A DNA stretch of 34,496 bases, taken from IMG/VR virus record IMGVR_UViG_3300042546_000350, positions 1 to 34,496 of that record, one strand, 5' to 3'. Under the pieces are notes generated by a model. That model was not told where the DNA came from, made no database searches, and saw only the letters and a program-made list of their open reading frames with translations. How positions within the stretch are numbered: position 1 is the stretch's first letter; each line of letters begins with the position of its first letter. The DNA comes from a virus. Both the position numbers and the translations under genes were made by a program. Below, in pieces: positions 10,245 through 28,206 of the stretch.

Positions 10245-10252
10245 TAAATTTG
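10245..10252 (+). promoter_or_regulatory. Portal gene promoter (-7 box)
   Basis: Plus-strand TAAATTTG fits TAnnTTTG. Its last G is 19 nt from the A of the portal ATG at 10271, the same distance as for the divergent head promoter. Confidence 0.6.
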
Positions 10253-10270
10253 TTAAAAAAATATTATTTC

Positions 10271-11503
10271 ATGGCATTTACACCGATACAATACATTGCA
10301 AGTCGTTTACGTCACTTTAGAGGTAAAGATACTTACACCCAAACACCAGTTTTTACACAATCGCAAATTTTTAACGGTAAAACTCCTTTATGGGTATCTG
10401 TTGACGATAAAGAAGCTGAAGTATTTAACACTACCCCTGAATTGTATAGTGTTATTATGAAGAAAGCTACTATGTACAGTAACGGTATATTTAAGCATTA
10501 TAAGACTGTTGGCGGTAAAGTAGTTGAAGTTGAAAATAGCGAGTATTTAAAGCTATTAGAAAAACCAAATGCTTTGCAAGGTCGCAATGAATGGATGATG
10601 GATGAATTGATACAAACCTCTGTATATGGTTGTTCATTCGGTTATAAGCTACAAGGTTATAGAGGTGCTACACCATCGGCATTATACAACTTACCAGCTA
10701 ATAGAATGAAAATAATTCCAACTGGTAAAATATACCAACAAAGCAAATTAGAAGATATTATTAAAGAATATCAATTAACTAATTATAGCGGTCATGTTGA
10801 AACGTTTGAAACTAACCAAGTTTTATATTCTCGTATTCAAAACCCTGAGAATCCAATTCTAGGTAAAAGTCCTTTACACGCTTTACAAATGCCTATATCA
10901 AATATTAGAGGTGCATACGGTTACAGAAACGTTTTAATTAATGAGCGTGGTGCAATTGGTATGATTTCAAACGATTCTAAAGATAGTGAGGGTGGAGTAC
11001 CTTTGAGTAATGCAGAACGTGAAAAGATAGAAAAGCAATTTGTACAAGACTACGGTATTCAACAAAATAAGAATAAAGTGTTAATTAGTTCATCTAACTT
11101 GAAATGGACTCCTTTTAGTTATCCTACTAAAGATTTAATGCTATTTGAAGAGATTACAAGCGATTTAAGAGCAATTATTGACTTGTACGGTATGAATGAG
11201 TATTTATTTAGTAAAGATAAAGGTAGTACATTCGCTAACTTGTTAGAGGGTAAAAGAATGGCTTATCAAGACTGTATTATTCCATACGCTGAGGATTTCA
11301 CATATAAACTCACTAATTTCTTAGGATTAGACGTTAAAGGCGAATGGATAGCATTAGATTATAGTCATGTCGAAGCGTTACAACAAAATAATAAAGCAAT
11401 TGCAGAAACTAATAAATTAAAAGCTGAAGCATACAATAGTTTATTAGGTAGTGGAAACTTTAACGATAAAGAATTAAGAGAATTATTAGGATTAACTTTG
11501 TAA
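10271..11503 (+). CDS. Portal protein, HK97 family, on the opposite strand
   Basis: A 410-residue portal starting MAFTPIQYIASRLRHF. I used the ATG at 10271 because the upstream extension starts only at TTG (10250), inside the -7 box. Portal hallmarks: a KATMYSNGIFKHYK-type N-terminal segment, LLEKPNALQGRNEWM (about 95-109, the LxxPNpxxs-type motif of HK97 portals), YNLPANRMKII, and a C-terminal helical crown with DLRAIIDLYGMNEYLF. It forms the dodecameric DNA entry ring that docks the terminase. It lies between the terminase and protease genes as expected but is transcribed opposite to both, from its own promoter and with its own terminator. Confidence 0.93.
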   Translation: MAFTPIQYIASRLRHFRGKDTYTQTPVFTQSQIFNGKTPLWVSVDDKEAEVFNTTPELYSVIMKKATMYSNGIFKHYKTVGGKVVEVENSEYLKLLEKPNALQGRNEWMMDELIQTSVYGCSFGYKLQGYRGATPSALYNLPANRMKIIPTGKIYQQSKLEDIIKEYQLTNYSGHVETFETNQVLYSRIQNPENPILGKSPLHALQMPISNIRGAYGYRNVLINERGAIGMISNDSKDSEGGVPLSNAEREKIEKQFVQDYGIQQNKNKVLISSSNLKWTPFSYPTKDLMLFEEITSDLRAIIDLYGMNEYLFSKDKGSTFANLLEGKRMAYQDCIIPYAEDFTYKLTNFLGLDVKGEWIALDYSHVEALQQNNKAIAETNKLKAEAYNSLLGSGNFNDKELRELLGLTL

Positions 11504-24600: not shown

Positions 24601-25128
24601 TTATTTTTGATAAGTTCCGTATTGAAATCTAACTATTCCATTATTATCTTTTACACCTAAGTAAGATATTTTACCGCTTTCGGTAAATTGTGTAAACCAT
24701 TTCCACTCCTTTAGTTTAAAGTTAAAAGTAGGTTTTCCAGTTGCTTTATCAAACTCGCTATCATTTAACTTAACTTGAATCAATGGGTAATCGTATAACT
24801 CCCTGCCAATACCCCAATTAAAACAAGCACGTTTAAAACTATCTGATGCCTGACCTTTCTCTTTTTCGGTATTGCTTTCTGTTCCAGTATCTTCTTTACT
24901 TATCCATTGATTAGTCTTTTCATCCCATATAGAAACAATACAGTTAGCATTATCTCTTGTATGTTCACGTTTCCAACCTAATGCACCACAAACATCGTCT
25001 AAGCGTTGCATATCAACCCTAGCGTCTTTATAAGCTAATATTGTAGCAAATCCACCTTTGTTAATTGACTGTACTCTAAAATCAATATTTTCAATTGGAA
25101 TCGGTTTTTGTAAATCTTTAATATTCAT
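24601..25128 (-). CDS. Rad52/Rad22-family single-strand annealing protein
   Basis: A 175-residue protein. The signature GQASDSFKRACFNWGIGREL (92-111) followed by YDYP is characteristic of phage Rad52-like annealing proteins, and VCGALGWKREH (47-57) and IVSIWDE (64-70) fit the conserved core. It anneals complementary single strands for phage recombination and repair and would work with the SSB-like and RusA-like proteins. It ends two bases before the 71-residue gene. Confidence 0.88.
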   Translation of the reverse strand: MNIKDLQKPIPIENIDFRVQSINKGGFATILAYKDARVDMQRLDDVCGALGWKREHTRDNANCIVSIWDEKTNQWISKEDTGTESNTEKEKGQASDSFKRACFNWGIGRELYDYPLIQVKLNDSEFDKATGKPTFNFKLKEWKWFTQFTESGKISYLGVKDNNGIVRFQYGTYQK

Positions 25129-25344: not shown

Positions 25345-25388
25345 GTAATAATTCTTGTTATATAATTATTATAGGACAATTTTCTACT

Positions 25389-25423
25389 AAAAAAGTGTTA
25401 ACTAGTTTATAATTAACACTTTT
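25389..25423 (-). terminator. Terminator closing the cassette array
   Basis: An 11-bp stem AAAAGTGTTAA/TTAACACTTTT (25423-25413 and 25401-25391 in transcript order) with a U6 run. It isolates the array from the recombination operon downstream. Confidence 0.8.
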
Positions 25424-25448
25424 AAATTGATGGTAGACTTATCAGCTA

Positions 25449-25460
25449 GTTAGCGGTAAT
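25449..25460 (-). repeat. Terminal R''-like box of cassette E
   Basis: Minus-strand ATTACCGCTAAC, 18 nt after the cassette E stop and identical to the 12 bases that end cassette D (26277-26266). It matches the start of cassette E (GTTACAGG) at only 6 of 8 positions, and no clear attC hairpin follows, so the last site looks degenerate or cut off. Confidence 0.55.
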
Positions 25461-25478
25461 AGGGGTGAAGTGCTTCGA

Positions 25479-26150
25479 TTAAACATTTTCGTTAGAAAAA
25501 GAATTTAAAAAACCTCCCCACTGTTCCGCAATAGCATCTGCAATCCCTTGAAATGTTTTGCTTCGTAAAGTTCTTAAATGTTCGGGTGATTTTGCTTGTT
25601 GTAAGCAATCATAAATCCAAGTAGCTTGTCGTTTTGTTTTGCCAGTCTTTTTATCCACCCACTCTTTAAACTCACCTTTTTCAACCACGTTTGTATGTTT
25701 TAATTTTGGTAAGTTTTTCAACCATAAACAAGTGCTTTTACTCGCTTTCTCTCCAAAATGATATGGATGCACAATTTGGTCAGGCTTTCTAATTTGGCTA
25801 CTAATTACGCTTACAGGGTTTTCAATTGCAATATGTTTTATTGGTGCATCCATTAATCTCTTTACAAAATCCAAAGCATCATTTTGGTTCTTCATTCTCA
25901 CTTCATTTATGCTTCCATCTTTATTGTACATTGCCCAAGCACCTGCAACTGATAAGTATGTACAAGGTGGGTGAGCAATCATTAAATCCCATCCTTTATC
26001 AATTACTTCAAATACATCTTGCTGGTAGTGCCATTCAGGATGCCCACCGCTACAAGGAAGCAAATCACAACTATACGCTTCGTGTCCTAACTTTCTAAAT
26101 GCTTTTGTTATTGCTTGACTTTCTTCACAAGCTACTAATATTCTTGCCAT
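25479..26150 (-). CDS. Cytosine methyltransferase-like protein (cassette E)
   Basis: A 223-residue protein. It has LVACEESQ (5-12) at the AdoMet-binding position, AHPPCTYLSVAGAW (59-72) with the Pro-Cys of a C5-methylase motif IV, and AIENPV (108-113) like motif VI; the tail has SKSTCLWLKNLP. This short type occurs in phages and bacteria as a divergent C5-cytosine methylase without a long target-recognition domain. Catalysis is plausible but unproven. It lies last in the cassette array and starts about 60 nt after attC_D. Its base composition looks less AT-rich than phage core genes. Confidence 0.75.
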   Translation of the reverse strand: MARILVACEESQAITKAFRKLGHEAYSCDLLPCSGGHPEWHYQQDVFEVIDKGWDLMIAHPPCTYLSVAGAWAMYNKDGSINEVRMKNQNDALDFVKRLMDAPIKHIAIENPVSVISSQIRKPDQIVHPYHFGEKASKSTCLWLKNLPKLKHTNVVEKGEFKEWVDKKTGKTKRQATWIYDCLQQAKSPEHLRTLRSKTFQGIADAIAEQWGGFLNSFSNENV

Positions 26151-26216
26151 CGCTCTTTTTTTAAATTCTTTTTAGTTTGTACTTCTAATTAAGTTTTGTG
26201 GTAGAAATCCCTACTA

Positions 26217-26273
26217 CCTGTAACACGGGTTTTGCGCCATTAAAACGGACGCAAAGCCCGATACCGTTAGCGG
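26217..26273 (-). repeat. attC-like site D/E
   Basis: A 57-bp site. Minus-strand order: CCGCTAAC (26273-26266), stem CGGGCTTTGCG (26260-26250), a 13-nt loop, CGCAAAACCCG (26236-26226), then GTTACAGG (26224-26217). The stem is 11 bp with one G-T type pair. Size and layout match short attC sites. Confidence 0.7.
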
Positions 26274-26278
26274 TAATG

Positions 26279-26452
26279 CTAACAAAATGCACAGCACCAA
26301 TAATCTTTTGGATACCAATGTCTGTTTTTAGTTTTGCAGTCAGGACATACTTCTAAAGCACTACCGCTAACATTATGTAAAAGCAATTTAAGACGTTCTA
26401 ATTCCTTTTCTGCTTTTATAATCTCTTGTTCTACTAATTCTTTTTTTGTCAT
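26279..26452 (-). CDS. 57-residue coiled-coil/zinc-ribbon ORF crossing a cassette junction
   Basis: ORF MTKKELVEQEIIKAEKELE... The N-terminal 27 residues are a charged helix. The rest holds CPDC (36-39) and CCAFC (53-57), a likely four-cysteine zinc ribbon. The start codon lies in the loop of attC-like site C/D, and the predicted G/TT crossover (26371/26370) falls within codon 28, so the first third is contributed by cassette C's attC. No in-frame Met or usual start lies downstream of the junction. It is either a chimeric gene formed by recombination or only the zinc-ribbon half is native to cassette D. Confidence 0.5.
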   Translation of the reverse strand: MTKKELVEQEIIKAEKELERLKLLLHNVSGSALEVCPDCKTKNRHWYPKDYWCCAFC

Positions 26453-26495
26453 ATCATTAAATTTAAACTGCTTTTACATAAAAACCGTTAGTGGC
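26364..26495 (-). repeat. attC-like site C/D
   Basis: A 132-bp site bounded by GCCACTAAC (26495-26487) and GTTAGCGG (26371-26364). Two 19-nt arms (26481-26463 and 26391-26373) pair with a single mismatch. The loop holds the start codon of the next ORF. Confidence 0.75.
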
Positions 26496-26500
26496 AAGCG

Positions 26501-26776
26501 CTACGATACTGCTCCTAATTCAGACATCGTTACATCAAACTCATCATTCGAGTTCCACCAACCTTCCCAAAGTTTTTGACCTGTTTTTATGTCTTTTACC
26601 ACATAATTCCAATAGCCACCAAGTATCTGCACTTTATCATTTTGGTATTGTGGCATTGAATAACTCATCTGCCCCATATCATTTCCCTCAATGGTGTCAA
26701 AAACTTTAAAACCTCTGCTTTCAATGTGTTTTCCTGTAACATATCCAGCACTATCTTTATGTATATTCATTTTCAT
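26501..26776 (-). CDS. 91-residue hypothetical protein (cassette C)
   Basis: MKMNIHKDSAGYVTGKHIES... ending TMSELGAVS. An alternative ATG lies two codons in (26770). Rich in Tyr, Trp and Gly (LGGYWNYVVKDI, LWEGWWN), giving a small beta-sheet protein appearance. No domain recognised. It is bounded by the matching signatures GTTAGTGGC (start) and GCCACTAAC (end), the cassette logic. No separate promoter was seen, so it probably depends on the array promoter. Confidence 0.6.
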   Translation of the reverse strand: MKMNIHKDSAGYVTGKHIESRGFKVFDTIEGNDMGQMSYSMPQYQNDKVQILGGYWNYVVKDIKTGQKLWEGWWNSNDEFDVTMSELGAVS

Positions 26777-26792
26777 TTAACTTACCGCACCA

Positions 26793-26899
26793 GCCACTAA
26801 CAGCGGTTTGGTGCTATTATTTTGCCTATTAAATTTATCTAAAACTTGAAATGTCTGCAAGGCAAAATAACAGACACCAAGCCGCAAAACGTTAGCAGA
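26793..26899 (-). repeat. attC-like site B/C
   Basis: A 107-bp site bounded by TCTGCTAAC (26899-26891) and GTTAGTGGC (26801-26793). The arms 26885-26860 (26 nt) and 26827-26803 (25 nt) pair almost fully, with one unpaired T in the longer arm, like the extrahelical bases that set strand choice in attC sites. The strongest hairpin of the set. Confidence 0.85.
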
Positions 26900-26902
26900 A
26901 AC

Positions 26903-27121
26903 TTAAAGTCCTAATAACTTTTTAATATTAGTTTCTGCGTTTTCATATATACTATAAAGTTGTTTATATAAACCATCATCGTTACACTTAGTCATTTCGA
27001 TAGCAATATTTTTTCTGTATTCGCACCATTCATTTAAATTATTAATAAATGATTTATTCATTACCATTACTGAAGCCTTTTGTATTTTTTCAAAGGATTC
27101 TAATCTACTTAAATTTGACAT
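26903..27121 (-). CDS. 72-residue helical hypothetical protein (cassette B)
   Basis: MSNLSRLESFEKIQKASVMV... ending NAETNIKKLLGL; all-helical with NEWCEYRKNIAIEM in the middle. The stop is 4 nt before the R''-like box, a typical tight cassette layout. Unknown function; small helical cassette proteins are often toxins, antitoxins or regulators, but nothing here shows which. Confidence 0.6.
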   Translation of the reverse strand: MSNLSRLESFEKIQKASVMVMNKSFINNLNEWCEYRKNIAIEMTKCNDDGLYKQLYSIYENAETNIKKLLGL

Positions 27122-27150
27122 ATATTTTATTATTAATTATTAAAAAAGCA

Positions 27151-27231
27151 TCTGCTAACAGGTGTTTGGCAAAACGGCTTGACAAGTACGCTCCTGTTAG
27201 CCGTTTCGTCAAGCGCCAAAACGTTATGCAC
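27151..27231 (-). repeat. attC-like site A/B
   Basis: An 81-bp site bounded by GTGCATAAC (27231-27223) and GTTAGCAGA (27159-27151). The arms pair in two blocks, GCCAAAAC with GTTTGGC (one extra A) and GTCAAGC with GCTTGAC, with a 6-nt unpaired spacer on one side. An alternative inner pairing AAACGGCT/AGCCGTTT exists. Confidence 0.8.
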
Positions 27232-27233
27232 AA

Positions 27234-27506
27234 TTATAACGAGCCTTTCGTTTTCCAATTTGATGGTGATTGATTTATACCCCTAATAAAATCTTCTGGT
27301 GAACCACCATCTGTTCCAGTTGGGTCTGTAAATCTTATTCCACCACTTGATACTATAATATCTGAAACCCACATTTCATCATTGTCTTTAATTTCATTCA
27401 CATTAAAGTTTTGTGGATGAAATACACCAGATAATGCAATCACTTCAATTCCATTTTCTAATTTAGCTTTTCTAACCAAATATTTTCCTCTTAAAATTCT
27501 TTCCAT
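27234..27506 (-). CDS. 90-residue hypothetical protein (cassette A)
   Basis: MERILRGKYLVRKAKLENG... ending PSNWKTKGSL. I chose the ATG at 27506; the frame also runs back through attC site 0 to an ATG at 27623, but those 39 residues are attC sequence. A beta-rich middle (ENGIEVIALSGVF, WVSDIIVSSGGIRF) is followed by a polar end. The stop is 3 nt before the R''-like box. No known domain. First gene of the array and so nearest its promoter. Confidence 0.6.
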   Translation of the reverse strand: MERILRGKYLVRKAKLENGIEVIALSGVFHPQNFNVNEIKDNDEMWVSDIIVSSGGIRFTDPTGTDGGSPEDFIRGINQSPSNWKTKGSL

Positions 27507-27514
27507 AAATAACT

Positions 27515-27641
27515 GTGCATAACAAAGTGTATAAGCAATAGCCGTTAGGCGTTTCAAACTATTGCAGTTGTTAATATTTAAGTTTCTACTTATAATCAAG
27601 GTCTGTGTTCGGCTACTACTCATACACCCAACCGTTAGTAT
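27515..27641 (-). repeat. attC-like site 0 (array head)
   Basis: About 127 bp from ATACTAAC (27641-27634) to GTTATGCAC (27523-27515). The arms GTGTATGAGTAGTAGCCG (27627-27610) and CGGCTATTGCTTATACAC (27544-27527) pair at about 14 of 18 positions with mismatches in the middle. It comes directly after an 8-codon ORF, at the place an attI or a first attC would occupy. Confidence 0.7.
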
Positions 27642-27668
27642 TCATAAATGTATCTTAAATTCTTTCAT
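27642..27668 (-). CDS. 8-codon ORF in front of the array
   Basis: Encodes MKEFKIHL and then stops 1 nt before attC-like site 0. Its ATG is 21 nt from the -7 box, the same spacing as for two phage operons, so it may be the 5' stub of a phage gene interrupted by the array. It is also analogous in placement to the short ORF in attI1 that aids cassette translation. Confidence 0.45.
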   Translation of the reverse strand: MKEFKIHL

Positions 27669-27689: not shown

Positions 27690-27720
27690 CAAATGTAACT
27701 AATTTTATTTAATTACAAAA
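27690..27720 (-). promoter_or_regulatory. Cassette array promoter
   Basis: Minus-strand TTTTG (27720-27716), 18-nt spacer, TACATTTG (27697-27690): the best full match in the window to the Bacteroidota -33/-7 pattern. It drives the array in the sense direction of all cassettes. Confidence 0.7.
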
Positions 27721-27729
27721 TATATTTAA

Positions 27730-27757
27730 TAAAAAAAGTGTAAATTTCTTTACACTC
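27730..27757 (-). terminator. Terminator of the lysis operon
   Basis: Stem AGTGTAAA/TTTACACT (27756-27749 and 27744-27737 in transcript order) with a 4-nt loop and a U7 run (27737-27731). It lies 45 nt after the M15 peptidase stop. Confidence 0.85.
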
Positions 27758-27801
27758 TTAAAACTAAAATAGAAAATATGCTATGTAAAGATAGTTATTA
27801 T

Positions 27802-28206
27802 TTACGGTTTAAAAAATCTATTTCCTGATTTTGGTGGATTTATTTGAAAGTGTACCCAAGTTTTAGTTGCGTTAAAATCTTCCATGTATAAACCTATTTC
27901 CTCCATAAGTTTAATATTCTCTAATATCCACTTTTTTAACTTACCATCACCATCAGCAAAGTCAACAGCACGACCAAATAAATGATTTGATTTCATTGGA
28001 ACTTTAGGAGGGTAAATTCCTTTCCTTGCGTATATATCTAAATGATGTTTTTTTGTTCTTAAACCGCTTGTAACTATCATAGGTTTACCGTATTCTTTAC
28101 GTACAATATTAACCTTTAAAAATAATTCGTTTAAGTTAGCTTGTACATCTTTATCTAAGTCCTCAAATTTAGCTTGATTACTTAACAGTTCTTTAATTGT
28201 TATCAT
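27802..28206 (-). CDS. Endolysin, M15-family peptidase
   Basis: A 134-residue protein with the zinc-peptidase pattern of the VanX/Ply M15 family: SGLR (47-50), SNHLFGRAVDFAD (73-85, His75 and Asp82), and WVHFQ (117-121, His119). It cuts D-Ala-containing or L-Ala-D-Glu cross-bridges of peptidoglycan at lysis. There is no signal peptide, so release depends on a holin. It is overlapped by 14 nt by the 25-codon membrane peptide gene upstream. Confidence 0.92.
   Translation of the reverse strand: MITIKELLSNQAKFEDLDKDVQANLNELFLKVNIVRKEYGKPMIVTSGLRTKKHHLDIYARKGIYPPKVPMKSNHLFGRAVDFADGDGKLKKWILENIKLMEEIGLYMEDFNATKTWVHFQINPPKSGNRFFKP

Follow-up and report, generated by a model that had tools for sequence, protein, structure and literature searches.

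An integrase-less array of integron-like cassettes in a Bacteroidota phage and related oriented arrays in Bacteroidota chromosomes

How does a phage genome come to carry a promoter-driven row of integron-like gene cassettes with no integrase beside them, and what would move them? The question is raised by positions 25449-27645, on the minus strand, of virus record IMGVR_UViG_3300042546_000350, which we analyzed over its full 34,496 nt (34.5 kb; hereafter the window). The genes of the window (major head protein, portal, terminase, primase, and helicase among them) are those of a phage related to Flavobacterium columnare phages, and nearly all lie on the minus strand, the portal gene (10250-11503) being on the plus strand. 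The array is flanked by an M15-peptidase endolysin (27802-28206) on one side and an Erf/Rad52-like annealing gene (24601-25128) on the other. One near-identical phage, L004, has a different endolysin-like gene at this place, a lysozyme-like one (534-965). Along the minus strand, the locus reads as a terminator-like hairpin with a T run between the endolysin and the array promoter (27724-27762; −10.1 kcal/mol, z −4.3), then TTTG-N18-TACATTTG (27690-27720), which by consensus is a promoter of Bacteroidota type, then five site-plus-gene units, the closing R'' box of cassette E (ATTACCGCTAAC, 25449-25460) with no hairpin after it, and a second terminator-like hairpin with a T run (25383-25425; −12.3 kcal/mol, z −4.5). 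Promoter and second terminator are both kept in two related phages, L003 and L004, and the sequence of this region predicts an array transcribed from its own promoter and bounded by its own terminators. An Rfam search of the array region returned no matches.

Five hairpins dividing the minus strand into five one-gene units had been proposed in the initial annotation, and this division is borne out by R1, a covariance model built from 19 aligned sites of phages and two Bacteroidota MAGs, which recovers all five window sites, three of them in its training set. All five share one orientation, between an AAC (R'') and a GTT (R') box. Site 1 (27512-27645; R1 20.1 bits, outside the training set) travels with gene A (27234-27506), which encodes 90 aa with no assigned function and has 97% amino acid identity in L316 and L317. 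This site folds no better as DNA than dinucleotide shuffles (z −0.3), and its support comes from its complementary arms, its R1 score, and its recurrence with gene A in L316 and L317. The other four hairpins fold better than their shuffles as DNA (z −2.5 to −4.9). They are site 2 (27148-27234; 52.1 bits, training set; z −2.5), followed by the 72-aa gene B (26903-27121), for which no relatives were found, viral contigs included; site 3 (26790-26902; 67.5 bits, training set; z −4.9), followed by gene C (26501-26776), whose 91-aa product has no assigned function and 78% amino acid identity in L319, a viral contig of 121 kb; site 4 (26360-26498; 32.2 bits, outside the training set; z −3.0), whose loop contains the start of gene D (26279-26452), a 57-aa protein with a zinc-ribbon-like CPDC...CCAFC motif; and site 5, of a short-loop type (26213-26277; 69.2 bits, training set; z −4.1), followed by gene E (25479-26150), a DNA methyltransferase of 223 aa (PHROG 757, E 3e-64).

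The ends of these units carry much of the argument. As first described, units A to D each open with a private GTTAnnnnn signature of 9-10 nt (GTTATGCACA, GTTAGCAGA, GTTAGTGGC, and GTTAGCGGTA) and close with its reverse complement, and this holds for all four neighboring pairs of the window. The ends of unit E match at 11 of 14 positions, and the identity of ends often extends over 14 nt except for a single G-to-A difference that is constant. Because what R1 leans on is the TAAC and GTTA letters and not the variable positions after them, these matches are an independent check on the sites. At variable positions 5-10, the four adjacent pairs agree at 6/6, 5/6, 5/6, and 6/6 positions; unrelated pairs reach at least 5/6 in 4.6% of cases, so four such pairs in a row would be expected with a probability of about 4e-6. 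Across all arrays, 25 of 27 neighbors lying no more than 1.5 kb apart agree in at least 4 of the 6 variable positions, compared with approximately 15% of unrelated pairs.

What kind of site this is can be read from the alignment. Its stem comprises ten pairs, all ten of which covary, and 97% of cells pair, against 80% after shuffling and at most 53% when slid. The common form is TAAC-GTTTT-stem-T-GTTA. One box is separated from the stem by about 5 nt and the other by 1 nt, with a C.A or C-G position standing in for a clear extrahelical base. None of the R' boxes of the window (GTTATGC, GTTAGCA, GTTAGTG, GTTAGCG, and GTTACAG) fits GTTRRRY, and R1 missed every class 1 integron attC site on which it was tried. 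The original designation of the locus as a CALIN therefore stands in part: it is an integrase-less, attC-like array, but its R boxes, its unequal spacers, and the failure of R1 on class 1 attC set it apart from arrays of canonical attC.

If the array were nonetheless an ordinary CALIN of a canonical integron, the standard IntI of the host could mobilize it, as in published virulent phages. Such CALINs, clusters of attC without an integrase, have been reported by Qi et al. 2023 (PMC9892861), who include Polaribacter phage P12002L and describe recombination by IntI1 of 5 out of 6 phage attC sites with attI1, one of them from P12002L; this same phage also has three R1 sites. The departures of box, spacer, and model match just described all speak against this origin, as does the recombinase that co-occurs with such sites in chromosomes, which lacks the IntI insertion. 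Moreover, canonical integrons were reported to be very rare in Bacteroidetes by an open-access survey. We regard an ordinary CALIN as unlikely.

That the units move is best seen in related phages. L003 and L004 are 98% and 94.5% identical to the window on the Erf side and 89% and 95% identical on the promoter side, and between these near-identical flanks, with the same promoter and terminator, their cassettes differ from those of the window. The methyltransferase unit of L004 has ends as in unit E and a different gene inside. Unit E recurs at 92.5% identity in L111 (4875-5713, against window 25449-26277), a 65-kb contig otherwise unrelated to the window within the 10.7 kb read, and L316 and L317 (62 kb), likewise unrelated phages, contain unit A with its preceding hairpin at 94% identity, which ends at the next AAC box. 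The expected gain, loss, or swapping of modules at the GTT/AAC points was thus realized in five phages (L003, L004, L111, L316, and L317). In array-bearing phages, the common stretches mostly start at the box with the 5-nt spacer and run through the hairpin into the following gene, so the phage unit is a hairpin and then a gene; the hairpin had initially been assigned to the gene before it, and comparison of shared cassettes reverses that assignment. Each mobile unit is therefore one hairpin plus one gene with matched ends of 9-14 nt, and these sequence comparisons indicate that whole units are exchanged between phages at R boxes, mainly the one adjoining the longer spacer. Cassettes A and E break at opposite boxes, however, cassette E being the exception, which counts against the site-specific explanation that we prefer.

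Other details of these units suggest additional events. Some cassettes have common ends and different inner genes (L004 1720-2740 and window 25449-26226; also L163, L164, and L168) and look as if genes had been replaced inside a cassette shell. In the hairpin before unit E, the arms differ between L111 and the window, each remaining complementary and both hairpins having the same loop (CGTTTTAATGG), as if arms had been swapped or the break had occurred at the other box.

Could homologous recombination alone produce such exchanges? Erf/Rad52-like annealing at short conserved hairpins and R boxes would shuffle modules without a site-specific recombinase, and the single-strand annealing gene adjoining the array, together with the near-identity of some hairpins between phages (95-98% over 60 nt), fits this proposal. 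Annealing does not predict private matched ends for each cassette, uniform orientation, or a recombinase at host arrays, and most hairpins of the window have only their structure in common, their sequences being different. We find annealing as the sole agent distinctly improbable.

The site family extends well beyond phages. R1 sites occur in at least 38 of 198 Bacteroidota genomes, and in 20 regions picked by sites alone they form arrays in single orientation of up to 14 sites. A tyrosine recombinase homolog lies in 7 of these 20 regions (L222, L224, L225, L227, L230, L231, and L232, that in L224 being a fragment), mostly at the same end of the array. Taken from the other direction, 13 of 16 regions picked by close recombinase homologs alone contain sites, 12 of the 13 in the same layout, and two of the three regions with no sites are cut by a contig end. 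A plasmid of Chryseobacterium sp. SNU WT5 offers a named example, its enzyme being annotated as a site-specific tyrosine recombinase/integron integrase. We had entertained a recombinase gene convergent with the array, which gene orientation ruled out; the recombinase lies upstream of the cassette genes and is co-directional with them. Against TIGR02249 (integron integrase), the host recombinases fall below the cut-off with a split match, and the 43-residue IntI insertion, described as essential for integron function, is missing in all 8 that were aligned. Bacteroidota chromosomes thus hold oriented arrays of this site family beside an IntI-like recombinase that lacks the IntI insertion, and the neighborhood of the two suggests that the enzyme acts on the sites. 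Beside some chromosomal arrays no recombinase was present within the 20 kb read, which weighs against this.

These host arrays also bear on a more deflationary account, in which the hairpins are dispersed repeats, whether REP/MITE-like elements or terminators, with a chance position beside phage genes or a purely transcriptional role. Many genomes do have single R1 matches only, and terminators are common in phages. The initial annotation would have been undone had the hairpins proved to be ordinary dispersed repeats of host genomes; what host genomes hold is oriented arrays beside a recombinase. Matched ends, fixed array orientation, exchange breakpoints, and recombinase adjacency already contradict dispersed repeats, and we give them very little credence.

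If phage and host arrays are built from the same sites, are their cassettes interchangeable? The direction of their genes argues that they are not simply so. Of 37 intervals between sites in phages, 35 have their longest ORF on the same strand as the R1 site, and of 59 such intervals in chromosomes, 53 have it on the opposite strand. This split in polarity (35:2 against 6:53) has p 1e-17 counted per cassette and 1e-9 counted per locus, with related loci not fully independent. Since phages and hosts agree in the side of the hairpin on which the break falls, host cassettes would be gene-then-site and phage cassettes site-then-gene; the host side of this breakpoint comparison is one locus pair, L276 and L288, which share the first hairpin beside the recombinase and were the only useful pair from an all-against-all comparison of chromosomal loci. 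With gene polarity opposite in phage and host arrays, simple filling of the phage array from an array of its host is unlikely. One MAG array, L175 (JAAFIQ010000028.1, 140-1904), has phage-type polarity, unlike the other chromosomal arrays, and may be a prophage or a misbinned phage contig.

In phages, where the site precedes the gene, some genes begin inside their own hairpin. Gene D does so, its ATG lying in the loop of site 4 and its frame crossing the GTTA box as V-S, and zinc-ribbon genes in L003 and L004 likewise start in their own hairpin loops and read through the box. We considered these zinc-ribbon ORFs as chimeras of two cassettes and dropped that idea, the hairpin and its following gene being one unit. 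Methyltransferase ORFs with an ATG in the hairpin loop are seen in L168 (7667-8495), L019 (909-1660), and L152 (378-1230), with frames that cross the box as LLPAV or VSG. ORFs starting inside hairpins number 22 of 75, not far above the 20% for random GTTA positions, and because the bare count is near the random level, we have relied on clear in-hairpin starts.

Where, then, would the enzyme come from? Neither the window nor any of 11 further virus records with arrays, some of them fragmentary, was found to encode a tyrosine recombinase, and a search of viral contigs found four distant homologs of the host recombinase and no close ones. With none encoded in these phage records, the enzyme is probably supplied in trans by the host. 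We consider it likely that the locus belongs to an integron-like system specific to Bacteroidota, as a cassette array carried by a phage without an integrase and moved in trans by a host recombinase, an explanation favored by the matched ends, the stem covariation, the exchange at boxes, the neighborhood of sites and recombinase found from both directions, and the polarity split. During infection, the host recombinase may work in trans on phage sites folded as single-stranded DNA, excising or joining cassettes. Small accessory genes could then pass between co-infecting phages, for example, DNA methyltransferases that would act against host restriction. Since site polarity fixes orientation, phage and host cassettes would constitute two largely separate pools. 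With some reserve, we lean toward a wider proposition, that Bacteroidota have an overlooked integron-like system of their own, with a distinct attC family and a recombinase without the IntI domain, and that phages keep a mirror-image pool, with the site 5' of the gene and often containing its start codon, borrowing the host recombinase to trade genes.

If this is true, a whole phylum has platforms for cassette trading that the integrase definition of IntegronFinder, which needs the IntI-specific domain, would miss, and phages use them in trans, one step sufficing to swap an anti-restriction or other accessory gene. The reversed polarity would then amount to a natural experiment on the influence of strand choice on cassette pools. 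The origin of integron recombination would become open to testing through an enzyme that lacks a supposedly essential domain and is paired with sites having no clear extrahelical base.

Set beside known systems, the resemblance to canonical integrons is considerable: hairpin sites with AAC/GTT crossover triplets and uniform orientation, cassette ends complementary to their own start, and a tyrosine recombinase beside the host arrays. The differences are that the R boxes are GTTAnnnnn and not GTTRRRY, that the spacers are unequal, and that the host recombinase lacks the IntI insertion and is transcribed the same way as the cassettes. In Treponema integrons (PMC3607928), too, the recombinase gene precedes the cassette genes and is read in the same direction, but these integrons have bona fide IntI and attC and belong to another phylum. 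Smyshlyaev et al. 2021 (PMC8138268), in the portion available, describe an integron-like, IntI-related subgroup of tyrosine recombinases in which the insertion is not fully conserved, and that portion gives no sites or cassette arrays for members without it. In the open-access journal papers searched, we came across no account of the Bacteroidota sites as a family, of their association with a recombinase, or of the polarity reversal. The closest published relatives are the phage CALINs of PMC9892861, which are likewise integrase-less, attC-like clusters of small genes and DNA methyltransferases, P12002L carrying sites of the R1 family itself; a host system, a distinct site family, reversed polarity, and exchange between near-identical phages are not described in the accessible text of that study. 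Canonical arrays and CALINs differ in layout as well, since here the phage hairpin precedes its own gene and the host arrays keep the order of gene and then attC. Phage CALINs are a kind already published, and the present array is a distinct variant of them.
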